Shown one piece after another: positions 14,534 through 26,659 of a stretch of 64,000 bases of DNA. Source of the DNA: an uncultured Clostridia bacterium. Lineage in GTDB: Bacteria > Bacillota > Clostridia > TANB77 > CAG-508. The first letter of the stretch is position 1. Each line of letters starts with the position of its first letter. The notes beneath the pieces were generated by a model that was not told the origin of the DNA, made no database searches, and was given only the letters and a program-made list of their open reading frames with translations. The stretch lies in contig CANPVP010000008.1 in the NCBI GenBank assembly GCA_947581825.1, positions 1 to 64,000 of the forward strand, given 5' to 3'. The position numbers were made by a program, and so were the translations under genes.

Positions 14534-14621
14534 GCAGATGTGGCGGAACTGGCAGACGCACAGGACTTAAAATCCTGCGGTTGAATAAACCGTGCCGGTT
14601 CGATTCCGGCCATCTGCACCA
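14534..14621 (+). tRNA. tRNA-Leu (UAA) with encoded CCA
   Basis: GCAGATG pairs with CATCTGC as acceptor stem. The anticodon loop CTTAAAA gives anticodon UAA. A long class II variable arm, a TTCGATTCC T-loop and CCA at 14619-14621 are present. The 3' half is duplicated at 24096-24154, marking it as the integration target of the adjacent element. Confidence 0.95.
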
Positions 14622-14623
14622 TA
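14565..14623 (+). repeat. Attachment site repeat at the tRNA (left att)
   Basis: 59 bp from the anticodon stem to just past CCA are identical to 24096-24154. The copies diverge directly outside these limits. This copy completes the intact tRNA-Leu gene. Confidence 0.93.
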
Positions 14624-14666
14624 AGAGCATCAAGGCTTTCGTAAAATATAACCTTGATGCTTTTAT
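14623..14666 (+). terminator. Terminator after tRNA-Leu
   Basis: GCATCAAGG (14627-14635) pairs with CCTTGATGC (14652-14660), then TTTT. This hairpin is supplied by the element; a different hairpin follows the right att copy. Confidence 0.75.
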
Positions 14667-14683
14667 AATAAAATTGCTAGATT

Positions 14684-14704
14684 TTTCTAACAAATTTCTA
14701 ACAA
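14684..14704. promoter_or_regulatory. Left integrase arm-type sites
   Basis: TTTCTAACAA occurs at 14684-14693 and again at 14695-14704, an 11-bp period, overlapping the 3' end of the integrase gene. An identical pair with the same period is found near the other end at 23923-23943. Confidence 0.65.
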
Positions 14705-15975
14705 TTTGAAATATTTTCTAATGTAGATGTATTAGAGTCCAGATCTAATATATCTTTTTTTATTTCTTTATTTTCTGTATTGGTACTAAAACTTAATGCT
14801 TTTTCTATAGCACTAGCTGACTTTATTTTTGAACTTGAATCTAAATGAGCATATCTTTCAGTAGTTCGTGAGCTCGAATGGCCTAACCAATCTTGAATCT
14901 CTCTTAAAGATATTCCTTTTTTTACAAGTAGTGTGGCACAACTATGTCTTAAATCGTGAAATCTTATTTCTCTTAAATTACTTTTTCTTAATATTTGTTT
15001 AAATTTATGGCTAACATAGTCTGGCTTTCTTAGATTTCCTAGTTCATCTAAACAAACATAATCTTTATATTGGTTGTTATAACTATCTCTAAATTGTGAT
15101 TTATAATATTCTTGCATTTTTCTAGTATATAGTAAGAGTTCTTCAATTTCTTTAAATAAAGGTAATGTCCTATAACTAGATTTATTTTTGGTTTTACTCT
15201 TTGCGAGCATTTTTGTTTTAGTTTTATCATCTTTGTTTTCATTTGTAACAGTTACTACTTTATGATTTATAGTTATAGTTTTATTTTCAAAATCTATTGC
15301 AGACCATCTTATGCCTAAAACTTCACTTCTTCTTAACCCATAAAATGCAGTTAAATAAACAATTAATTCTAATGGTGTGTCTTTTACAACTTGGAATAGT
15401 GTATTTAATTCATCTTCACTGTAATAATCAGCAATAAATTGTTCTTGATGTGGTCTACCAACTTTTATAGCTGGGTTACTAGGTATTAAATCAGTTTGTA
15501 CTGCATAATCTAAAGCTTTTCTAATATTAGCATGATATTTTACAACAGTATTTCCTTTTAATCCTTGTGAATATAGCCAATTATAAAAATCTAAAATATG
15601 AACAGGTTTCAAATCGTTTATCATAATAGGATGTTTTGTAAAGTATTCTTTTGTTCTTCCTTCAATTTGTCTTTTATAACCTGTATATGTAGATTCTTCA
15701 ACTTGATGTTTTATCATTTCAAGCCACTTTATCATAAAATCTGCAAATGATATTTGTACTTTTTTATCTTCTGTTTTTGTAGTTGTAATTGTTTCTAATT
15801 TATTTATAAATTCATCTCTTATTTGAATAAGTCTCTTTTCAGCTTTTTTCCTACTTTCGTTTTCTTTAATCCCTGTAGAAACCCACTTTAATTTTCTTTG
15901 TCCTTCTACATAGTAAGTCAATACTGTATAATAAGTCTTATTCTTAATTGTTAAATATGCTGTGATGTTCTTCAT
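14698..15975 (-). CDS. int: Tyrosine recombinase (integrase)
   Basis: 425 residues. An N-terminal AP2-like arm-binding region precedes a SAM-like core-binding domain (about 75-170, FADFMIKWLEMIKHQVEEST). The catalytic domain has Arg in YGLRRSEVLGI, HxxR in FHDLRHSCATLL, the second His in WLGHSS and the nucleophile Tyr in TTERYAHLD. It should integrate and excise the element at tRNA-Leu. It lies next to the tRNA and 19 bp after the excisionase gene. The pair of arm sites overlaps its 3' end. Confidence 0.95.
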   Translation of the reverse strand: MKNITAYLTIKNKTYYTVLTYYVEGQRKLKWVSTGIKENESRKKAEKRLIQIRDEFINKLETITTTKTEDKKVQISFADFMIKWLEMIKHQVEESTYTGYKRQIEGRTKEYFTKHPIMINDLKPVHILDFYNWLYSQGLKGNTVVKYHANIRKALDYAVQTDLIPSNPAIKVGRPHQEQFIADYYSEDELNTLFQVVKDTPLELIVYLTAFYGLRRSEVLGIRWSAIDFENKTITINHKVVTVTNENKDDKTKTKMLAKSKTKNKSSYRTLPLFKEIEELLLYTRKMQEYYKSQFRDSYNNQYKDYVCLDELGNLRKPDYVSHKFKQILRKSNLREIRFHDLRHSCATLLVKKGISLREIQDWLGHSSSRTTERYAHLDSSSKIKSASAIEKALSFSTNTENKEIKKDILDLDSNTSTLENISNC

Positions 15976-15994
15976 TAAAATCTCCTTTCTAATT

Positions 15995-16201
15995 TTAAAC
16001 AGTATTTTTCGTTAAAAAAGCGATAACATTTATCTTAGGTATTCTGTATAGCTTTCCAACTTTAATTGATTTTATAGTACCTTTTCGTACTAATTCGTAT
16101 GCCTTTTGTTTACTAATATTACCTAACATTGATTGTAGTCCAGATACATCTACAACATCAGGATAGTTAGCAAACATTTCTTGTGTGTTATTATTTTGCA
16201 T
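15995..16201 (-). CDS. xis: Excisionase-type DNA-binding protein
   Basis: A 68-residue protein with a winged-helix excisionase (MerR-like, HTH_17) fold: SKQKAYELVRKGTIKSIKVG followed by YRIPKINVIAFL. It should bend DNA at the att arms and favour excision. GGAGG precedes its ATG. It is directly upstream of the integrase gene on the same strand, and divergent from the DUF6076 gene across a structured 350-bp gap. Confidence 0.85.
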   Translation of the reverse strand: MQNNNTQEMFANYPDVVDVSGLQSMLGNISKQKAYELVRKGTIKSIKVGKLYRIPKINVIAFLTKNTV

Positions 16202-16245
16202 CGCATTCCTCCTTTTCTTTCAAAATCAAATTTTGTCTATATTTT

Positions 16246-16329
16246 AGTAGATTAAGGTAACCCATATAATGATTTGTAAATGGCAAAGCCATTAACACAA
16301 TCATTTATATTTACCCTGTCCCATCTACT
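16246..16329. other. Long multi-segment hairpin upstream of xis
   Basis: Nested complementary segments fold around one axis: AGTAGAT (16246-16252) with ATCTACT (16323-16329), GGTAA with TTACC, an AATGATT/AATCATT segment, and AATGGC with GCCATT at the tip. This gives one interrupted stem about 84 nt long inside the xis leader. The rest of the gap (16330-16520) holds a GC-richer stretch and an AGTATCAT/ATGATACT inverted repeat near 16430-16470. I recognise no known RNA family. Confidence 0.5.
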
Positions 16330-16522
16330 CAAGGGAATATTATAGATAGTTTTACCTACATAGGAATTTCACCTCTCCGTTATCAACCGAGCGACTCCTC
16401 AACATCATATTAAGCCAAGCCGAAGTATCATTATATTGTTCTATAATATCTTCGTATGATACTAATTTTAGTATGTTTTTCAATGTACTTTTATATTTTT
16501 ACAATTTTTACTTGCAAAAATA

Positions 16523-16551
16523 TTGTAATTATGATAGTATTATAGTATAAT
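16523..16551 (+). promoter_or_regulatory. Promoter of the element's cargo operon
   Basis: TTGTAA (16523-16528) and TATAAT (16546-16551) are 17 bp apart. Transcription would begin near 16558, which argues against the upstream ATG at 16561 and for the start at 16624. Confidence 0.65.
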
Positions 16552-16623
16552 AATTATAGAATGTCAATAACAAATGATAAAAAAATACAAATTGTTAACT
16601 ATAAAATTGGAGGAAGTATTGAA

Positions 16624-17727
16624 ATGAAAGCAAATTTGCCAGAAAAAAATTTTTTTGATAGCTTTTACATTTGGTTTAACAAAGATAAAAGAGAAGAATA
16701 TTATTCAACACCTATGTTTACTTATAAAACTAAAACAAAAATAGAGTATGATAATAGATTAATGCATATATCTTTTGATAAAAAAGTAAAAGTATCTAAA
16801 GAAGAACAAGGGTTAAAGTTTCCAGGTAATATGTACTTTCCTTATGTAGAAAGATTTGGAATGTTCTTATTAAGATTCCTAAATGCAAATTTCTCAGACT
16901 TTGAAACAGCATACGAAACTTTCTTCTTTGCCTATGGATTTGAACTATTAAAAGAGATTGATGAAAATTATACTTTTGAATTAAAAGGAAAATATGCAGA
17001 CAATGAAGAATATATAAGTAAAATGACAAAAATTTACAATGATTTACAATATCAAATTCAAGAAATTCAAGAAGAAATGAAAGAATTTGTAGACTATGTA
17101 TATAATATTAATAATAAAGGAGAATTAAAAGAATATACAAATGCCCAAAGATTTGCAGTATATTTGATAAAGAACAAAGGACAAGCCTTTTCTTATAACA
17201 AAAATGATAATATTATAAGAGATAGTTATTCTAATAAATATGCTGAATTTATGGGAGATAGCGAAGAAAAATTGCTTGAAAAATTGAAAGCAAATAGTAT
17301 GCTTGTTTCTATGATAGATACACACCAAAGTAATGACTTATCAGCAATATGTTATGCAGTATTAGAAGAACTAGTAAAAACAACAAATAATCCAATTAAG
17401 AAATGTCAAAATTGTGGTATGTACTTTATTCCAAATTCAAGACTTGATGAAATTTATTGTGACTATCCAAAAGAAAATGGAAAGACTTGTAGAGAACAAG
17501 GAGCAGTACAAGCATATAACGAAAGATTAAAGCAAAATAAGGCTTTAGCAGAATACAGAAGATTATATCAATTAAAATCAATGGCAGTTGGTAGAAATAA
17601 AGATAATAAACAGATGAAGAAAGATTTTGATAAATGGAAAAAAGATGCTAAAGATAAAGTTAATAAATTGAAACATGGATTTTTAACAGAAGATGAAGTA
17701 TATGAGTGGTTAGTAAATAATAAGTAA
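16624..17727 (+). CDS. DUF6076-like protein with a C-terminal zinc finger
   Basis: 367 residues. The middle is helical and charged. The C-terminal part has a four-cysteine zinc site (KCQNCGMYFIPNSR, then YCDY and KTC) followed by a Lys-rich helical tail (FDKWKKDAKDKVNKLKHG). This fits the DUF6076 family common on Clostridia mobile elements. The function is unknown; nucleic-acid binding is likely. The start at 16624 follows TTGGAGGAAG, while the upstream ATG at 16561 sits on the predicted transcription start. A decayed copy of its 3' end lies outside the right att site (24203-24427). Confidence 0.65.
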   Translation: MKANLPEKNFFDSFYIWFNKDKREEYYSTPMFTYKTKTKIEYDNRLMHISFDKKVKVSKEEQGLKFPGNMYFPYVERFGMFLLRFLNANFSDFETAYETFFFAYGFELLKEIDENYTFELKGKYADNEEYISKMTKIYNDLQYQIQEIQEEMKEFVDYVYNINNKGELKEYTNAQRFAVYLIKNKGQAFSYNKNDNIIRDSYSNKYAEFMGDSEEKLLEKLKANSMLVSMIDTHQSNDLSAICYAVLEELVKTTNNPIKKCQNCGMYFIPNSRLDEIYCDYPKENGKTCREQGAVQAYNERLKQNKALAEYRRLYQLKSMAVGRNKDNKQMKKDFDKWKKDAKDKVNKLKHGFLTEDEVYEWLVNNK

Positions 17728-17740
17728 GAGGGTAGCGTTT

Positions 17741-18963
17741 ATGAATGAATTAACTATTGATGATGAATCTTTTCATATTCGAGATTTAAAAATAGATATT
17801 GCAAATAAAGAGATTATAATTATTGAAGATAATATTTCATCTAAAATATATAACTTTTTTCAAAAATATATTATATGGGATTATGATAAAAATATAAGTA
17901 AATTAGTTTATTTAAAAGATAAAGACGATAACATATATACATTTTATGGATGTTATATAGGAAAGTCTAGTTTGAAAGATAATAAAATTAATTTGAAAAT
18001 AAAATTTCAGGCTTTTGTTACTAATTATTATATCGAAGACATTAGAAATTATAATATAGACAAAATGGAAATATTAATTGAATATAAGCAATTTGACTTA
18101 GTTCAAATTGAAGAATGTATAGGTACGAATCTTAAGTTTAATATAGGCAATATGCAATATAACATAGAACTTATATTTAATAGCGGACAATATAAGATTA
18201 CTTTAAAGAATAAAGAACAATTAATAACAGATAAATTTATTCATAAATTTTTACAATTTTATGAGTTCCTTATACTTAATTTGGGATATTACTTAAAAAT
18301 AAAAAAATTAAATTATATAATTTTGGAAAAAGTTTTGAATATTACTACCCTTTTTCTAGTAAATATATAGGAACTAATAATTATAATAATTATACTTGTG
18401 TATTGAGTAATATTAATAGAAACGATGTAAAGAAAGCCTATAAAAATTGGTTAGCTATTAGAAAAGATACTCATACTATTTTTGATATTTATATGAATGT
18501 ATTTTCAGTAAAATATTTTATAGAAATTGCATTAAGTACAATTACAAATTGTATGGAAGGATATTATAAAATAGTACATAAATCAACAATTAAAATTAAA
18601 TATAAAGATAAAAATGGAGTTATTAACACTAGAAATAAAGACTTTAAAGAAATAATGAAGGAATATTTAAATTCTAATGAAGGAAAAATAATATTTTCAA
18701 ATATGGATAGACAAAGATTAAAGCTATATACTAGACTTCGAAACCACAGAAATTACTTTGCTCATTTAGATAAGAAGAAAAAACGCTTTTATGGAGAAAG
18801 TAATTTATATGTATTATTAAAGATAAGATTATTATTTAGAGTTTTTATACTCAAGGATATTGGATTAAACATAGAGATAAAAAATCTGACAGAACAAGTA
18901 AGAAGTATTGAAGAAGATATAAAATGGAAAGAAAATAAGAATATATATTTTTCATTAAAATAA
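17741..18963 (+). pseudogene. ApeA-like HEPN protein split by a -1 frameshift at an A7 run
   Basis: Two open frames, 17741-18370 and 18403 onward, are one gene. The second frame stays open upstream to about 18301 and reads IKLYNFGKSFEYYYPFSS, continuous in sense with the end of the first. The switch falls at ATA AAA AAA (18299-18307), a textbook -1 slippery heptamer. The N-terminal part is a beta-rich domain like the ApeA N-terminal domain. The C-terminal part has a HEPN ribonuclease motif Rx4H in RNYFAH. ApeA is a HEPN anti-phage protein. Whether this is decay, polymerase slippage, programmed frameshifting or a sequencing indel cannot be told here. Confidence 0.65.
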
Positions 18964-18998
18964 AGTTTTAGTTATAATAAAAGGAAAGAGTAAGAAAA

Positions 18999-19550
18999 AT
19001 GAATTGGTTAGAATTTTATAAAGAACAGTATTATAGAGAATTAGAAAGAAAAGACAGGTTAAATGAAAAGTTTAATTCGTTTTTAACTATAGTAACTATA
19101 ATAGGCGGAGGATTATTTGTCATTTTAAATAAGTTAGTAGATGTAATAAATGACAAACAATATAATTCCTTAGTTATTATTGTTCCAACATTGATTATAA
19201 TTTGCATTTTATTTGTATTAATATTCAAATATATGTATAATGTATATTATGAAAAAGAATATACATACTTAAATAGTATTGAAAAAATTGAACAAAAACG
19301 TAAAGAATATGAAGATTTTTATACTACATCTTATGAGGAATATTATAAATCAAGTAATAAAACAATTGAACAATTAGTAGAAGAAAAAATGATTCAAAAT
19401 ATTAAAGAAAATCTAATTGAAGCAACAGATAAAAATTTAAAAACAAATAATGAAAGAATATATAATAATGTAATTTTAAATAGATTAATTTTAAGCTTAA
19501 GCATTATAATGTTCTTATTATATATCTATATGATTTTTATCCCTAGTTGA
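18999..19550 (+). CDS. Three-helix membrane protein, SLATT-like in layout
   Basis: A 183-residue protein. A charged N-terminal helix (FYKEQYYRELERKDRLNEKF) is followed by two membrane segments (about 27-46 and 57-77), a long coiled cytoplasmic stretch (about 80-150) and a C-terminal membrane helix (IILSLSIIMFLLYIYMIF-like). This resembles the layout of SLATT-domain pore-forming effectors of nucleotide-signalled defence systems, but I see no decisive motif. It lies 36 bp after the HEPN gene and 54 bp before a 47-residue proline-rich gene. Confidence 0.5.
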   Translation: MNWLEFYKEQYYRELERKDRLNEKFNSFLTIVTIIGGGLFVILNKLVDVINDKQYNSLVIIVPTLIIICILFVLIFKYMYNVYYEKEYTYLNSIEKIEQKRKEYEDFYTTSYEEYYKSSNKTIEQLVEEKMIQNIKENLIEATDKNLKTNNERIYNNVILNRLILSLSIIMFLLYIYMIFIPS

Positions 19551-19604
19551 GAAACTATAAAATATACAATGTCTATATTTTTAATGTAAGGAGGTGTTAA
19601 TATA

Positions 19605-19748
19605 ATGAGTAAAAACAATGAAACAAATACAAACAATAATACAGCAAAACCATTACCACCAGAACCATTAACGTTAAACACTATTACTATAACTGAATCA
19701 TATTCTAAAAAAATCAATCAAAGTAATACTAAAAATATAAAGAAGTAA
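19605..19748 (+). CDS. 47-residue Asn/Pro-rich small protein
   Basis: An open frame from an ATG preceded by TAAGGAGGTGTTAATATA, one of the best ribosome sites in the window. The product begins MSKNNETNTNNN, has AKPLPPEPLTLNTITITESY in the middle and a Lys/Asn-rich end. It is soluble, probably unstructured, and was not recognised. It sits between the three-helix membrane protein and the AlbA/ATPase gene on the same strand, suggesting that it is a partner of one of them. Confidence 0.6.
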   Translation: MSKNNETNTNNNTAKPLPPEPLTLNTITITESYSKKINQSNTKNIKK

Positions 19749-19764
19749 TGATTGGAGTGATTTT

Positions 19765-21105
19765 ATGCCAAATACTGAAACAAATAGAATTGAATACAAG
19801 CAACAACTAACAAAAGATTTTGAAGAAGAAGTTATTGCCTTTCTTAATTATAAAGAAGGTGGAATTATCTATGTAGGTATTAGAAAAGATGGACAAGTAG
19901 TTGGACTTAAAGATATTGATTTAACACAATTACAAATAAAAGATAGAATTAAAAATAATATACAACCTTCAACTTTAGGATTATTTGATGTAATAGTGGA
20001 AACAATAGATGATAAAGAGATAATCAAAGTTGTTCTATCTAGTGGAACTGAAAAGCCTTATTATTTAAGAAAAAAAGGTAGAACTCCTGAAGGTTGTTAT
20101 ATAAGAGTTGGCAGTAGTAAAGAAAGAATGACATTTGATATGATTGATGAAATGTATTCTAGGCGTGTTAAAACATCTCTAAAAGAGCTAGAATCTCCTA
20201 GACAAGACTTAACATTCAGGCAATTGAAAATTTACTATGAAGAAAACGGAATGAAACTTAATGATAATTTTGCTAAAAATTTAAACCTTTTAACTAGTGA
20301 AGGTAAATACAATTATAATGCTTAATTGCTTGCTGATGAAAATAATATATCAATAAAGTTAGTTAAATATTTAGGGACAAATAAATTAGAATTGATAGAG
20401 AATCATGAATATGGATATTGCTGTATAATTACCGCTACACATAGAATCTTAGAAAGACTTGTTGCTGAAAATACAGTTTATGCAAAAATAGAATATAATG
20501 GCAGAAAAGAAGTTGAAATGATAGATAGTAAAGCTTTAAAAGAAGCTGTTATCAATGCTATTGTTCATAGTGATTATACTTATAATACTTCTCCAATAAT
20601 TGAATTGTATTCTGATAGAATAGAGATTACTTCTGGTGGTGGACTTCCTCAAGAATTATCACAAGAAGAATTTCTAGAAGGTGTTACTGCTCCAAGAAAC
20701 AAAGAGCTTATTAGAGTATTTAAAGATGTCGATTTAATTGAAAATATCGGCTCTGGAGTTTTAAGAATTTTAGAGGCTTATGATAAAAGTTGTTTTATAT
20801 TTATGGATCATTTTTTAAGAGTTTCATTTAAATATAGAGAGAATCCTTTTAAATATGATAATGATAAAATAAAAAATGATAAGATAAATGATACGATAAA
20901 TGATAAGATAAATAAAAAAGAAAAACAAATTTTAAATGTTTTAAGTGATAATCCAAATATAACAATACCAGAGATTAGTTCAATTACAAAAATATCTACT
21001 GCAACTATTTCAAGATATTTAAAACAATTACAAGATAAACAAATAATTAAAAGAGTGGGTTCAAACAAGTCAGGGAATTGGATAATATTAAAAATTGATA
21101 AATAA
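19765..21105 (+). pseudogene. AlbA_2 (Schlafen-type)/ATPase regulator interrupted by an in-frame TAA
   Basis: The first part (19765-20325) is an AlbA_2 domain (NRIEYKQQLT, NYKEGGIIYVGI, YIRVGSSKERM). After a TAA at 20323-20325 the same frame continues as LLADENNISIKLVKYLGT, an ATPase part (LKEAVINAIVHSDYTY, GGGLPQELSQEEFLEG, NIGSGVLRI), a Lys/Asn/Asp-rich linker and a C-terminal winged helix. Related proteins read AYLLAD at this point, so a Tyr codon probably became TAA. Family members are transcription regulators on mobile elements. Reinitiation at TTG 20326 is possible but has no ribosome site. Confidence 0.75.
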
Positions 21106-21124
21106 AATTTAAAGGAGGAAAATC

Positions 21125-21661
21125 ATGGAAGAAAAATTTGATGTACTTAATGAACTAGGAGAATTTACAGGAAAAATTGCAACAAGAGAAGAATGTCATG
21201 CAAAAGGATTATGGCACAGAGCTGTATATGCATTTATTATAGATGATAATGGAAATATTTTATTGCAAAAAAGAAGTGCAAATAAAAAATTATGGCCTAA
21301 TATGTGGGATGTTACAGTAGGTGGTCATGTAGATAGTGGAGAATTTGGAAGGCAGGCATTAATTAGAGAAGCTAAAGAAGAATTAGGAATTGAAATTAAC
21401 GATGATGATATTAAATATTTAGTTGGCTCTACATCAGTAAATAACCAAGGAAATATTATAAACAAGCATTATAATGAATGTTATTTAATTACTAAGAACA
21501 TTGATGTATCTGAAATAATAGTGCAAAAAGAAGAAGTTTCAGAAGTAAGATATTTTTCAAAAGATGAAGTATTAGAAAGAATTGCAAATAATTATGATGG
21601 TTTAACAGAAAAAACTGGAGTATGGAATTTTTTACAAAAAATACTTGAGAAATATGTATAA
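21125..21661 (+). CDS. NUDIX hydrolase, IPP-isomerase-like subgroup
   Basis: 178 residues. The NUDIX box reads GHVDSGEFGRQALIREAKEE with LGI following, and all its catalytic Glu residues are present. The upstream GLWHRAVYAFIIDDNGNILL and KKLWPNMWDVTVGG segments are typical of the YfcD/IPP-isomerase-like subgroup. The substrate is probably a nucleoside diphosphate derivative, but cannot be told. AAAGGAGG precedes the ATG. It is cargo of the mobile element. Confidence 0.85.
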   Translation: MEEKFDVLNELGEFTGKIATREECHAKGLWHRAVYAFIIDDNGNILLQKRSANKKLWPNMWDVTVGGHVDSGEFGRQALIREAKEELGIEINDDDIKYLVGSTSVNNQGNIINKHYNECYLITKNIDVSEIIVQKEEVSEVRYFSKDEVLERIANNYDGLTEKTGVWNFLQKILEKYV

Positions 21662-21728
21662 TAAACTAATTTCATTGTTTTTTTAGTAAAAATGTGTTAA
21701 AATAATAATTAATAATGTGTAAATAAAA

Positions 21729-21748
21729 TAGCAATGGTCAGATTGCTA
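21729..21748. promoter_or_regulatory. Inverted repeat upstream of the 21785 gene
   Basis: TAGCAAT and ATTGCTA flank a 6-bp centre. It lies in the leader region of the next gene and could be an operator or a small RNA hairpin. Confidence 0.35.
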
Positions 21749-21784
21749 AACAATCCAAACTAAACATTTTAGGAGGACTAATAT

Positions 21785-22339
21785 ATGATGATAAGTAGTA
21801 AATTAGAGAGCATGAAAAAAATAAACGAATTGGGACTTAACAAGTTTCCAGAACAATTATTTACTGATAATGAACAAGAACGGGTAAAAAAGTTCATAAA
21901 TAGTTATCCTGCAAAGTATTATGCAATTAGAGATAAATCAAAGGCAGCTGGTATTTTTAAATTAAAAGTTCCTGCTAATGAGGTTTTGACAGAAATACAA
22001 GGGTATCAACTATTTACAATCAATGTAAGTTCAGCGAATTATGTAGAAAATCAAATACTTGTTGGAGAAATACAGATTTTATCAAATGGAGAAGTTTATG
22101 CAATATTATCTGTAGACCCAAGTGCATCTGTGAGAGATGCTATAAGGAATCCTACTTTTAATTTGAAAACTGACATATTTGATAAACAATTAAATGTTAT
22201 TCCACATTTTGATTCGATATATAAATACATTGTAGAACATAATCTGCAAAATGTAATTGTTGAATTTGCCTTGTTTGATGAAAATGTTGGCATAAACAGT
22301 GAAAAAGTTATAATCTACGAATTACGAACACATTATTAA
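21785..22339 (+). CDS. Conserved hypothetical protein, mobile-element cargo
   Basis: 184 residues with no membrane segment and no motif I can assign. Notable stretches are YPAKYYAIRDKSKAAG near residue 43, INVSSANYVENQILVGEI, SVDPSASVRDAIRNP and the C-terminal VIIYELRTHY. It looks like a compact globular alpha/beta protein. The start has TTAGGAGGACTAATAT upstream. It is flanked by its own leader inverted repeat and a strong terminator. Confidence 0.55.
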   Translation: MMISSKLESMKKINELGLNKFPEQLFTDNEQERVKKFINSYPAKYYAIRDKSKAAGIFKLKVPANEVLTEIQGYQLFTINVSSANYVENQILVGEIQILSNGEVYAILSVDPSASVRDAIRNPTFNLKTDIFDKQLNVIPHFDSIYKYIVEHNLQNVIVEFALFDENVGINSEKVIIYELRTHY

Positions 22340-22349
22340 ATTCTGACCT

Positions 22350-22384
22350 AAAAGAAGCATTCACTAAACTTGGATGCTTCTTTT
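22350..22384. terminator. Terminator between the 21785 gene and mobV
   Basis: AAAAGAAGCAT pairs with ATGCTTCTTTT around a 13-nt loop. It serves the plus-strand gene and probably the convergent mobV. Confidence 0.75.
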
Positions 22385-22409
22385 ATAGTCCAATAACTAA
22401 TTGCATTTT

Positions 22410-23588
22410 TTATAATTCTTCATATTCTAGTTCTTCTTCATATTCAATTTGCCTTTCTGGATTAAGAAAAGTATCATTTTCAAATTCAAAATTTCTAATA
22501 AAATCTTCTTCTGAAGAAACAGAAAATTTATTACATACCCAATGAATAAATTTATCAACTGTCTTTCGAAAAGTATTTAAAACTTTTCGTAAAAAGTTAT
22601 TTTCTTTTTCAAGCTGATAGATTTCATCTTCATATTTATTTTTAACTTTTTTTATTTCTTCTTTAATTTTAACAGAATAATCTTTTTCAATATTTTCGCA
22701 TTTTTCTTTCAATTCTCTATTTTCACACATTATAGATTTTCTTTCCTTTTCATATTTTGAAGCTCTTTCAACAGTATTAATTTGACTTTGAAGTGTTAAA
22801 TAAAGTAAAGATATTTGTTCTTGTTGTTCTTTAATCATTTTATCTCTTGGTTCTACAACTAGTTCTTGAATTTTTTCATCTCTATTTCGTACTAATTTTC
22901 CAAAACTTTTGACATCAGGTGTTTCTGGTAATTGTAATTTTATATCTTTAAGAACAGTTTTAGTATTTTCGAAATTTGTAATCTTTTTATAATCTTCAAC
23001 AGACAAATGTACTCTTTCACCAGAGTTTCCTCTTTCTAAATCAAAACCATTTGCAGTTATGTAAGAGTGAAAGGCATTTTGTAGTTGCCTATAACTATCT
23101 TTAGCTTTCCAAAATTCACTACAAGCAATTTTATCGATAGCATTTCCGTTTTTATCTTTTGTATGAATAACTGGAATAAAAACCAAGTGCATATGTGGAC
23201 TTTCTTCATCCATATGCACTTTTGCAGACAAGATATATTGTTCTCCTAAATTTTTATATTCACACACAAACTTATAAGCTGTTTCAAAATATCTTTTTGT
23301 TTCTTGTTCTCCAATATTTTCAAAGAACTCTTTATCAGATGTAATTATATATTCACAAGCTATATTACTTACAGTTTTAATTTGTCCTTTCAAATTATAT
23401 TCTTTTCTTATTCTGTCAAATTCTTTTTCGTAATTGTATAGTGGTGATTTTATCGAATAATTCAAATATGATTTTTCCTTGTCAATATTCTTATTTGAAT
23501 AGTTCTTATTTCTTCTTTCATTGTGTCTAAAGATTCCTTTCAAATTTTCTCTTTTATATTTTGCATTTCTAATTATTGCATAACTCAT
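22410..23588 (-). CDS. mobV: MobV-family relaxase (Mob/Pre)
   Basis: 392 residues. The N-terminus has MSYAIIRNAKYKRENLKGIF with a conserved RHNERRN, and the metal-binding motif is HMDEESPHMHLVFIPV. The C-terminal third is coiled coil (about 255-330). It should nick oriT and pilot the strand during conjugal mobilisation. AAGGAGG lies 7 nt before the ATG at 23588; a longer frame has no better site. The oriT-like region and a hairpin array lie just upstream, as expected for this family. Confidence 0.9.
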   Translation of the reverse strand: MSYAIIRNAKYKRENLKGIFRHNERRNKNYSNKNIDKEKSYLNYSIKSPLYNYEKEFDRIRKEYNLKGQIKTVSNIACEYIITSDKEFFENIGEQETKRYFETAYKFVCEYKNLGEQYILSAKVHMDEESPHMHLVFIPVIHTKDKNGNAIDKIACSEFWKAKDSYRQLQNAFHSYITANGFDLERGNSGERVHLSVEDYKKITNFENTKTVLKDIKLQLPETPDVKSFGKLVRNRDEKIQELVVEPRDKMIKEQQEQISLLYLTLQSQINTVERASKYEKERKSIMCENRELKEKCENIEKDYSVKIKEEIKKVKNKYEDEIYQLEKENNFLRKVLNTFRKTVDKFIHWVCNKFSVSSEEDFIRNFEFENDTFLNPERQIEYEEELEYEEL

Positions 23589-23654
23589 TTTATAACCTCC
23601 TTGATTGGCTAAGAATAACACCTAGCCATATAAAAATTTTTGCTTATTTTAGGA

Positions 23655-23725
23655 TGTGTTGTAACACACTACGACACTTTTATTGCCTTCAGTAAAAAAG
23701 TGTCAGTGTGGTAGGGACACCCTAC
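23655..23725. other. Probable oriT
   Basis: Directly upstream of mobV are GTGTTGTAACAC, an imperfect inverted repeat whose arms are CACACTACGACACTTTT and AAAAGTGTCAGTGTG, and a GTAGGG/CCCTAC hairpin. MobV relaxases usually act on inverted repeats of this kind just upstream of their own gene. The nick site is not assigned. Confidence 0.55.
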
Positions 23726-23734
23726 ACCCGTTTA

Positions 23735-23867
23735 CCTAAAAAATATACTTTGATATTTTTTAGGTTTTAACTAAATATGCTAATCGCAATTTAGTTAAAA
23801 AATAGCAATACAAAAATTGATAACAATTTTTATATTGCTATTTCACAAAAGCATATTTGCTTTTGTG
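23735..23867. repeat. Array of four near-perfect hairpins
   Basis: Four consecutive hairpins fill 133 bp: 23735-23764 (12-bp stem, 6-nt loop), 23765-23800 (12-bp stem), 23800-23843 (20-bp stem with one mismatch, 4-nt loop) and 23844-23867 (10-bp stem, 4-nt loop). There is almost no spacing between them and no T-runs typical of terminators. The place, next to oriT, suggests a single-strand origin or processing signal. Confidence 0.7.
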
Positions 23868-23922
23868 CTTAGTATAGGCAAAATTTATTCTGAATAAAGG
23901 AAGTTTTATACTGTTTAAAATA

Positions 23923-23943
23923 TTTCTAACAATTTTCTAACAA
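23923..23943. promoter_or_regulatory. Right integrase arm-type sites
   Basis: TTTCTAACAA occurs at 23923-23932 and 23934-23943 with an 11-bp period, identical in sequence and spacing to the left pair at 14684-14704. Confidence 0.65.
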
Positions 23944-24095
23944 AACTTGAAAAAGTTTAATTAGAATTTTATATATTTAAAATCATTATTGTTACAATAA
24001 AAAGTAACCAAATTGCTTGAAATAATTGCAATTTGATACAAACATAGTAGTATTAAATATTATTATCTATCACTAAATAATAAAATGATAAAATA

Positions 24096-24154
24096 ACTTA
24101 AAATCCTGCGGTTGAATAAACCGTGCCGGTTCGATTCCGGCCATCTGCACCATA
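24096..24154 (+). repeat. Attachment site repeat, far end (right att)
   Basis: A 59-bp exact copy of 14565-14623. It carries only the 3' half of tRNA-Leu and no 5' half, so it is not a tRNA gene. Confidence 0.93.
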
Positions 24155-24195
24155 GATTTATCAAAGCTTTTAAGTTTTGATAAATCTATTTTTTT
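24153..24195 (+). terminator. Terminator after the right att copy
   Basis: TAGATTTATCAAA pairs with TTTGATAAATCTA, then seven T. It is likely the tRNA's terminator before the present element inserted, or that of an earlier element. Confidence 0.7.
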
Positions 24196-24202
24196 ATATA
24201 TG

Positions 24203-24427
24203 AAAAGATTTGTAGAGAAAAAGGAGCAGTACAAGAATATAAACAAAATACTGCTTTAAAATATTATATCAGTTAAAGTCTATGGCTGTTGGTAGAAAAA
24301 AGATAATAAACAAATGAAGAAAGATTTTGAAAAATGGAAAAAAGATGCTAAAGATAAAGTTAATAAATTAAAACATGGTGTTTTAACAGAAGATGAAGTA
24401 TATGAGTGGCTAACCCAAAACAAGTAA
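24203..24427 (+). pseudogene. Remnant of a DUF6076-like gene (3' end)
   Basis: The sequence closely matches the last 240 bp of the DUF6076 gene at 16624-17727, including the tail encoding DFEKWKKDAKDKVNKLKHG and VYEWL. It has lost its start and contains internal deletions. It lies just outside the right att, so it is the trace of a second related element once integrated at the same tRNA. Confidence 0.8.
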
Positions 24428-24707: not shown

Positions 24708-24736
24708 TTGACAAATAAAAAAAAAATGTATATAAT
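24708..24736 (+). promoter_or_regulatory. Promoter of the candidate antitoxin RNA
   Basis: TTGACA (24708-24713) and TATAAT (24731-24736) match consensus with a 17-bp spacer. Confidence 0.85.
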
Positions 24737-24742
24737 AATGAT

Positions 24743-24832
24743 AGAAAGTAAGTAGCCACAGACAATGTGTGTTACCTTAATAATTTTGATAAACACCACA
24801 TAGCTCAGCCAAGCAAAATGTGGTGTTTTTTA
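24743..24832 (+). ncRNA. Candidate type I antitoxin RNA
   Basis: A consensus promoter followed 55-85 nt later by a strong terminator (ACACCACAT at 24793-24801 with ATGTGGTGT, then T6) defines a transcript of about 90 nt with no ribosome site or reading frame of note. It converges on a 36-residue hydrophobic gene on the other strand and overlaps its 3' end and terminator. The first 35 nt closely resemble the 5' end of the opposing mRNA (shared ATAGAAAGTAAGT and ATGTGTGTT), so the two promoters form an inverted duplication. Confidence 0.65.
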
Positions 24833-24940
24833 GTTTATTTGACTATTAACCCATTGTATGTAAATGATACATAGTAAGGCTAAATTTATTGTTATTGAAA
24901 TCATTAAACCTATTACTAGGAATGTTAAAATCTCTAACAT
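24830..24940 (-). CDS. Candidate type I toxin, 36-residue hydrophobic peptide
   Basis: The peptide begins MLEILTFLVIGLMISITINL and continues as one membrane helix, ending in a short polar tail (WVNSQIN). TAGGAGGTGAGGCT before the ATG is a strong ribosome site. A TATAAT at 25033-25028 gives a leader of about 80 nt that contains a CTTGATT/AATCAAG hairpin. A convergent small RNA overlaps the 3' end. This layout is that of type I toxin genes such as txpA/RatA and bsrG/SR4. The peptide itself was not recognised as a known family. Confidence 0.65.
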   Translation of the reverse strand: MLEILTFLVIGLMISITINLALLCIIYIQWVNSQIN

Positions 24941-25183
24941 AGCCTCACCTCCTAACTCTTGATTAGAAATCAAGGTAGAAGGCAACACACACATCTGCTT
25001 TAACTTACTTTCTATGTAAATTACTATATTATATTTTTTTATTTTTTTCAGGAACCAAACATTATTCTTAATAAAAAATTACTATATTCTTTAATAATTA
25101 TAATAACAGAATAAAAAAATTTCAACATTCATTTAATTATAAAAATAATCACTTGCCGACATTAAATCACTTATATATAACCT

Positions 25184-25996
25184 TTATGATTGAAAATCAT
25201 TAATTAGATTTTCTATCTTTTCATCAGTTACATCTCCAAAAGTATATTTGTAGTCTATAACAAAATTATTATGAAAGTTTACATCTTTAATTGTTAATCC
25301 TGTTTCTTTATCTATAAAATTCAAATAATCATCTCCTACCAATAAATAACAATCTTTATGTCCTAATTCCACACTCTTAATAGAATCTATTGATGCTACT
25401 CCTATATTTCCCCAAAAACTTTTATTTAAAAATTGATATCTCACGTCTTCTCTAATGCTATTTTTATCTTTATTAACATCTTTGTTTTCAACTTTATTTT
25501 TAAAGCTTCTTCTATCTTTTATTCCATTAAGTTGATATTCTATCATTTCTTCTACCCCTTCTTCGTCTATCCTAGTAGTAATAGCTACAAAATTGTCGTT
25601 ATGCTTATAATATTCCTTCTTGATAGTACAATTTTCTGTTGTTTCAACCCTAATTTTTGAATAGTTTTTATAGTCTGCTTTAATAGCCATATTCTCCACT
25701 TTGTATAATATAGCTACTTTTCTAATAAAAATAACTATAAATAGAAAAATAATTACAAAGATAATTGTTTTTAAAAGTTTTATTTTATTATTTACTTTTT
25801 TAAAAATATTAATTTTTTTATTCTCATTATTTTTATAATCTACTTTTATTTCTTCTGACATATTTTTAAAAGATTCTCTACATTCATCACAATTTTTTAA
25901 ATGTTCTTCTATAAAAACATTGGTTTCGTTACTAGTTACTTTATCAATATAATTTGGTAATAAATCTTTAACTAAATTACACTCTTTATTTTTCAT
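25184..25996 (-). CDS. Anti-sigma factor with zinc-finger domain
   Basis: 270 residues: an N-terminal zinc-binding anti-sigma domain with HLKNCDECRESF (HxxxCxxC) at about 32-43, a membrane helix at about 75-92 (LLKTIIFVIIFLFIVIFI), and an extracytoplasmic domain. It should hold the sigma factor encoded upstream at the membrane until an envelope signal arrives. The start overlaps the sigma gene by 11 bp, so translation is coupled. Confidence 0.85.
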   Translation of the reverse strand: MKNKECNLVKDLLPNYIDKVTSNETNVFIEEHLKNCDECRESFKNMSEEIKVDYKNNENKKINIFKKVNNKIKLLKTIIFVIIFLFIVIFIRKVAILYKVENMAIKADYKNYSKIRVETTENCTIKKEYYKHNDNFVAITTRIDEEGVEEMIEYQLNGIKDRRSFKNKVENKDVNKDKNSIREDVRYQFLNKSFWGNIGVASIDSIKSVELGHKDCYLLVGDDYLNFIDKETGLTIKDVNFHNNFVIDYKYTFGDVTDEKIENLINDFQS

Positions 25997-26471
25997 AATT
26001 AAACCACTCCTTCATTTTTTCTTTGCCTCTATAAAAGGTTACTCTAACCCAAGTTTCAGTTGTATTCATTATTTCTGCGATTTCTTTATAACTCAAATCT
26101 CCTTTAATTTTTAAATATATTACATCTCTTGTTAATACGTCTAATTTTTGAATTGCTTTGAATAATTGCATTCTTTCTTCTTTTTCTAAAAATACATCTT
26201 CTGTTACTATAACATCTTTATCATTTATTTCTGCAATTTTATTTTTTCTTTTTATTTCATCTATCCATAAATTTCTTGCTATTTTGCATAACCATGTGGA
26301 TAATTTTGAATTATTCTTAAACTTAGATATATTAATAATAGCTTTATAAAAAGTTTCTTCAGTAAGTTCTTCTGATATATATTTGTTATTAGTAAGAGAC
26401 AATAAATACTTATATACCAATTGATAATTTTCTATATATATCTCATTAAAGTCTTCCATAGAGATTTTCAT
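25986..26471 (-). CDS. ECF sigma-70 factor
   Basis: 161 residues with region 2 (YQLVYKYLLSLTNNKYISEE, TWLCKIARNLWIDEIKR) and region 4 (LDVLTRDVIYLKIKGDLSYK, EIAEIMNTTETWVRV). It is a group 4 sigma factor directing RNA polymerase to stress promoters and is paired with the anti-sigma gene downstream. AAAGGAG lies upstream of the ATG. Its own -35 element could not be assigned. Confidence 0.9.
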   Translation of the reverse strand: MKISMEDFNEIYIENYQLVYKYLLSLTNNKYISEELTEETFYKAIINISKFKNNSKLSTWLCKIARNLWIDEIKRKNKIAEINDKDVIVTEDVFLEKEERMQLFKAIQKLDVLTRDVIYLKIKGDLSYKEIAEIMNTTETWVRVTFYRGKEKMKEWFNYEK

Positions 26472-26659
26472 TTCATCACTCTCCTTTCTTTTTTTCTTTT
26501 GTATGTAATATTAATATTGTATCATGAAAATTTACTTTCTATATATTAGACTTTTACATATTGTTTTTGTTACAATTTGTTAATTTTTTTGATTATATAA
26601 AGATTTATATTTAAAACAAAAAATGTTTATACTTTTTAATATCCAAATGCTAGTTTTCC

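Follow-up and report, generated by a model that had tools for sequence, protein, structure and literature searches.

In par/Fst, whose two transcripts are RNA I and RNA II, and in the Fst/Ldr group, a small membrane peptide is encoded between convergent promoters and the two RNAs share a 3′ hairpin; the Shine-Dalgarno sequence lies in a 5′ stem-loop and paralogues are scattered in genomes, and in par of pAD1 both RNAs are transcribed across direct repeats and so have complementary 5′ ends (PMC7472228). TxpA/RatA and BsrG/SR4 of Bacillus subtilis each pair a small membrane toxin with an antitoxin that is convergent and overlaps the toxin's 3′ end (PMC7430163). In hok/Sok and aapA/IsoA the toxin mRNA is closed by a 5′–3′ interaction and early hairpins hide the Shine-Dalgarno sequence (PMC6733600), and the type I modules of Clostridioides difficile (CD2517.1-RCd8 and others) are convergent, overlapping pairs from the Clostridia, present several to a genome (PMC6563280). 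Here we describe a candidate type I toxin-antitoxin module that resembles par/Fst, the B. subtilis pairs and the C. difficile modules in these respects, apart from the pAD1 repeats, and is predicted to resemble hok/Sok and aapA/IsoA. It occupies positions 24708–25051 of a 64,000-nucleotide stretch ("the window") of contig CANPVP010000008.1 from an uncultured Clostridia bacterium.

An initial annotation, made from the sequence of the window, had proposed this locus as a candidate new type I module, and that proposal is upheld by a membrane peptide under purifying selection, a convergent promoter and 3′ overlap at 111/112 toxin loci, an excess of antitoxins without toxins, a multicopy and patchy distribution, and the lack of a match to a known family. 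Two observations go beyond it: the family is large and comprises several toxin classes, and covariation between the shared 5′ ends fits a helix that closes the 5′ end of the toxin mRNA onto its 3′ end. From sequence comparison, it appears very likely that the family belongs to the type I class, is real and is apparently undescribed. We also consider it likely, for the statement as a whole, that the locus is a type I module with a toxin mRNA closed by read-through.

Organization of the locus

The module consists of a peptide gene on the minus strand and a convergent RNA of about 90 nt on the plus strand, whose 5′ ends are mutually inverted repeats (Table 1). The annotated origin of the RNA at a consensus promoter is borne out by a perfect 12/12 match; its predicted start lies at ~24743 and its end at the shared hairpin, followed on the antitoxin side by T6. 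The toxin mRNA most likely starts from CTGAAA-17-TATAGT, judged by sequence a weaker promoter (9/12). R1, a covariance model built for the antitoxin RNA with the present locus among its rows, matches the RNA here with E 1e-10 in a search of its own genome. Since the whole layout recurs at >150 loci, it is more than a chance arrangement.

The peptide had been credited with an excellent ribosome site. The 36-codon frame and a Shine-Dalgarno sequence, AGGAGGTG at 24946–24953, about 7 nt 5′ of the toxin ATG, are indeed present, but most of the site is predicted to be base-paired (unpaired probability about 0.2 as a mean across relatives) in a conserved short stem with an upstream (G/A)CC, so that low translation would be expected from every form of the mRNA. 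The shared hairpin at which the 3′ ends were said to overlap is likewise present, but as a terminator it is good mainly in the antitoxin direction, being T-richer on the antitoxin side in 99/107 relatives.

Distribution of the toxin and its classes

The 36-residue peptide has one predicted membrane helix (the best 19-residue stretch, starting at residue 8, has a hydropathy of 2.7), and its coding sequence is under purifying selection, with a crude family dN/dS of about 0.29. Its own genome holds six further credible matches, five of them full and accompanied by the whole layout and the sixth a truncated toxin relic. The initial annotation had suggested searching related genomes for the peptide together with the promoter pair. 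Relatives of the toxin occur in 149/292 sampled genomes of the bacterial family (28/39 genera), which, to judge by their record titles, are animal-gut assemblies of uncultured Clostridia, and in 127/287 genomes of the order, other families included. Among the 112 toxin loci with sufficient flank, 111 have the convergent antitoxin promoter and the 3′ overlap: immediately behind the toxin, a sigma-70-type promoter, mostly TTGAC[AT]-17/18-TATAAT, faces it from the other strand. The sole exception, L082, has also lost its own leader; the promoter of L090 is weaker, and the best-scoring match at L037 is perhaps not the true promoter. Toxin presence is patchy and multicopy. At some places (L060, L103, L070, L020 and L024) two to three modules of differing sequence lie within a few kb, forming arrays of diverged copies.

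A search of 397 genomes from the rest of the phylum gave nothing convincing and one marginal partial match, and the searches made of phages, plasmids and IMG/VR found no relatives of the peptide; one short, weak plasmid DNA match fell over the antitoxin promoter. For the 36-aa peptide, Pfam and NCBIfam returned nothing relevant at E up to 10 and PHROG weak matches only (E at least 0.08); PADLOC gave nothing relevant among the toxin classes tried, and Rfam matches at the locus were at chance level, under gathering scores. No description of the family was found in the open-licence literature searched.

This leader and promoter pair, with this type of antitoxin, also accompany peptides of other classes, as exemplified by MIEAVLLEIIYLLLFGLVVETIIVFALIILVIILSK for class II and MLEEALLQLLILSLITNMALAIISFVLIIVFVIITYKKNHISASH for class III. 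Single odd toxins also stand on this layout (L211 and L219). The other toxin classes tried against Pfam, NCBIfam and PADLOC gave no convincing match, and class II was not found beyond its own genome in 299 genomes of the phylum. Comparison of the class I and class II profiles gave an hhalign probability of 10%; the two classes may share a common ancestry. The third class, represented by L251, L253 and L256, has 45 residues and a polar tail and is found with the same antitoxin type.

Shared 5′ ends and a predicted closing helix

The initial annotation had described the two 5′ ends as an inverted duplication. This holds exactly for a 13-nt block, motif 1 (ATAGAAAGTAAGT), found at 24741–24753 on the plus strand and at 25003–25015 on the minus strand and nowhere else in the window as an exact copy (about 0.5 matches with at most one mismatch are expected by chance), whereas the second shared block is not identical, differing by two bases (ATGTGTGTT vs. 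ATGTGTGTGTT). Because the repeats are inverted, both RNAs begin with the same sequence and cannot pair with each other at their 5′ ends. When loci are aligned on motif 1, the promoters are dissimilar and the likeness begins at the predicted start sites. A possible leader reading frame beginning at the ATG of AAATGA was discarded, as loci with AAGTAAG do not have it.

The two copies of motif 1 match at 10.1 of 11 positions within a locus, vs. 8.95 ± 0.11 across loci, and the excess is kept when partners are shuffled among close toxin relatives only (10.11 vs. 9.74 ± 0.06). The test of covariation took the 5′ end of the mRNA and the complement of the antitoxin's 5′ end as the two strands of a helix, in 42 variants after ten poorly anchored or shifted ones were left out; the result holds with all 52. 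Double compensatory changes occur at 9/11 motif-1 pairs, none of 500 shuffles reaches the observed values, and the signal collapses in slid controls. The mismatches are mainly an mRNA G against an antitoxin A, which would give G–U on the mRNA strand (29 to 10, p = 0.003), a direction that points to pairing inside the toxin mRNA and not on the antitoxin strand.

An mRNA that carries the complement of motif 1 must pass the hairpin and extend to about the antitoxin start, and the T bias of the hairpin toward the antitoxin side makes such read-through plausible. Folding of 107 loci agrees in that about 28 of the first 42 nt of the read-through mRNA are predicted to pair with its 3′ end, compared with about 3 in the hairpin-ended form. 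RNAalifold on MAFFT alignments recovered only the terminator stem and the short Shine-Dalgarno stem, probably because the inner stems differ among clades. Read-through fold-back of the toxin mRNA is moderately probable.

The sequences themselves show the architecture, its conservation, the covariation and the asymmetry of orphan antitoxins; we infer toxicity, antisense silencing, read-through, inertness and activation along the following lines. The peptide would act as a membrane-spanning toxin, its mRNA coming from the weaker minus-strand promoter and the antitoxin RNA from the consensus promoter on the plus strand. Being antisense to the mRNA 3′ end, the antitoxin would lead to degradation or silencing of the mRNA, by analogy with BsrG/SR4 and TxpA/RatA. 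The hairpin would be a poor terminator in the toxin direction, so that the mRNA would often extend to about the antitoxin start site, and since the antitoxin 5′ end copies that of the mRNA, the read-through 3′ end would be complementary to the first ~35 nt of the same molecule. The resulting long-distance helix would close the mRNA and leave it stable and inert; the Shine-Dalgarno hairpin would silence it during synthesis, and the mRNA would become active once its 3′ end was removed or displaced. We lean, by a little, toward a dual role of the antitoxin gene, as antisense RNA and as the self-complementary tail that locks the mRNA, and toward a single RNA chassis carrying several interchangeable toxin classes across one order within the Clostridia.

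The most serious alternative is a type I module that works by 3′ antisense only, as in TxpA/RatA, with an mRNA ending at the shared hairpin and identical 5′ ends that serve each RNA separately, for instance as a stability or processing signal. We regard this as unlikely. The antitoxin is wholly antisense to the 3′ hairpin of the mRNA, T-runs flank the hairpin on both sides at some loci, and the 5′ block can also find a partner in the hairpin arm of the same mRNA (−16.5 vs. −14.35 kcal/mol for shuffled partners), all of which fit it; yet a common signal leaves unexplained the private variants that match between the two ends of each locus, the G–U direction of the mismatches and the bias of the hairpin toward the antitoxin. 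The short-range pairing of the 5′ block with the mRNA's own 3′ hairpin, despite its good duplex energy, is also seldom the favoured fold (mean 3.3 paired nt) and was rejected.

Antitoxin genes without intact toxins

R1 finds ten good antitoxin copies in the genome of the present locus, four of them with the toxin truncated or missing, and matches in 38/59 family genomes searched. From 79 matches fetched, one at a contig end was dropped. Among the remaining 78 antitoxin loci, 58 encode a small membrane peptide that is intact (57 recognized by rule and L223 by eye), while in the other 20 the toxin is deleted, 5′-truncated or without its start codon, its last residues often being still legible. 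Toxin without antitoxin (1/112) is thus far rarer than antitoxin without intact toxin (20/78; Fisher p = 5e-8, a value that serves as a guide only, the two samples having been drawn with different queries). Such an asymmetry is the pattern expected of a harmful peptide and a harmless RNA. Two neighbouring antitoxin genes in the same genome (L006 and L145, G000:C2:253341–253867) present both states side by side, one with an intact toxin and one an orphan with only the last toxin residues.

The asymmetry also bears on the possibility that the peptide is a non-toxic membrane peptide with a physiological role, regulated by an antisense RNA. Purifying selection would suit any conserved function, and the toxicity of the peptide is deduced, but its patchy, multicopy presence and the frequent truncation of the peptide gene where the RNA gene is kept, set against the near absence of peptide genes without the RNA, make this reading improbable, more so than antisense control at the 3′ end only. 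A miniature transposable element with the two 5′ ends as terminal inverted repeats would account for repeats that flank the module, its multiple copies and the matching of repeat pairs within a copy, but we set it aside as highly improbable, since the conserved promoters sit outside the repeats, the likeness sets in where transcription starts, not where an element would end, and no family match was found.

Several points weigh against the module with a read-through-closed mRNA that we favour. It is predicted from sequence in uncultured organisms, and the p-values are optimistic because related loci are not independent. The T-runs on both sides of the hairpin at some loci mean that read-through may be partial. 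The Shine-Dalgarno sequence is predicted to be unpaired to about the same extent in the truncated, short and long forms of the mRNA (0.20, 0.20 and 0.22); as its predicted accessibility is unaffected by the 3′ end, the closing helix may have its main effect on stability or at the 5′ end, and not on translation. A helix of ~30 bp could also be a substrate of RNase III instead of being protective.

If the favoured reading is right, the locus represents a large family of type I modules that extends through an order of uncultured bacteria from gut and rumen, with peptides absent from the family libraries searched. It would offer a concrete case of a toxin mRNA silenced by a tail that overlaps the gene of its antidote, in which covariation names the paired positions, and also a natural experiment, several toxin classes being driven by a single RNA control unit.

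Genomic surroundings

The locus had been placed beside an element remnant. A 9.5-kb integrated element does extend over 14534–24170, from a tRNA-Leu gene (14534–14621) to a copy of its 3′ end that forms attR (24096–24170), but the module lies ~540 bp outside attR and not within the element, and the association is therefore one of adjacency only. Between attR and the module, 24200–24427 is a degraded repeat, 88–90% identical to parts of 17477–17727 (the 3′ part of an element gene) and probably what remains of an insertion that this tRNA received earlier. Within the element, a pemK RNA motif (Rfam RF02913) lies at 16358–16434 on the minus strand, and an open reading frame at 18403–18963 contains LRNHRNYFAH, which recalls HEPN-type proteins. 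On the other side of the module, a pair of genes for a sigma factor and an anti-sigma factor (25134–26594) recurs at 99.5% identity, in another context, in the sister genome G009, the match breaking sharply at both ends; a comparison with an empty site in that genome was uninformative because this neighbouring block is placed elsewhere there.

Table 1. Positions of the module's parts and of two genes in the adjacent element, numbered along the window
Feature	Positions	Strand	Remarks
Toxin open reading frame	24940–24830	minus	36 aa, 36 codons, MLEILTFLVIGLMISITINLALLCIIYIQWVNSQIN
Probable toxin mRNA promoter, CTGAAA-17-TATAGT	25023–25051	minus	9/12; −10 in register with relatives
Antitoxin promoter, TTGACA-17-TATAAT	24708–24736	plus	12/12, perfect consensus; kept at relatives
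Motif 1 (ATAGAAAGTAAGT), predicted toxin mRNA 5′ end	25003–25015	minus	covaries with antitoxin copy
Second 5′ block (GCAGATGTGTGTGTTGCC)	24981–24998	minus	predicted to pair with read-through 3′ end and, more weakly, with the 3′ hairpin arm of the same mRNA
5′ untranslated region hairpin, predicted to occlude the Shine-Dalgarno sequence AGGAGGTG	24941–24983	minus	from folding and alignment
Shared hairpin	24791–24828	unassigned	antitoxin RNA terminator, weaker toward toxin direction
Antitoxin RNA, ~90 nt	24741–24834	plus	motif 1 copy 24741–24753, small hairpin 24757–24769, terminator
Complement of antitoxin 5′ end, proposed fold-back arm of read-through toxin mRNA	24741–24775	minus	would pair with 24981–25015
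Integrase-like gene	14698–15975		in 9.5-kb element
Mob_Pre relaxase	22410–23621		in 9.5-kb element

Comparison with known systems

The peptide was annotated as unlike Fst, TxpA and BsrG, and this is confirmed. In contrast to Fst/Ldr, it has no PXXXG motif, no proline and no relevant Pfam or NCBIfam match; it also differs from TxpA and BsrG in having no family match in these libraries, its PHROG matches being weak. Unlike the direct repeats of par/Fst, the repeats here are inverted in the loci listed, and the two RNAs carry the same 5′ sequence. As to the bidirectional terminator of par/Fst, the hairpin here is stronger on the antitoxin side at 99/107 loci, and some loci have T-runs on both sides. 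The antitoxins of TxpA/RatA and BsrG/SR4 are longer (180–222 nt) and have long overlaps, and shared 5′ ends are not described for them in the sections of the source drawn on here (PMC7430163). The C. difficile toxins reviewed are set apart by their description, being 34–59 aa long with lysine-rich, charged C-termini and encoded mostly in prophages (PMC6563280); the phage, plasmid and IMG/VR searches made for the peptides described here gave no relatives.

Given read-through, the toxin mRNA is predicted to possess the long-distance 5′–3′ interaction of hok/aapA-type mRNAs. Unlike in those systems, the organism is Gram-positive, the antitoxin adjoins the toxin gene on its 3′ side, the peptides are unrelated by family search, and the proposed 3′ arm is the complement of the 5′ end of the antitoxin gene.
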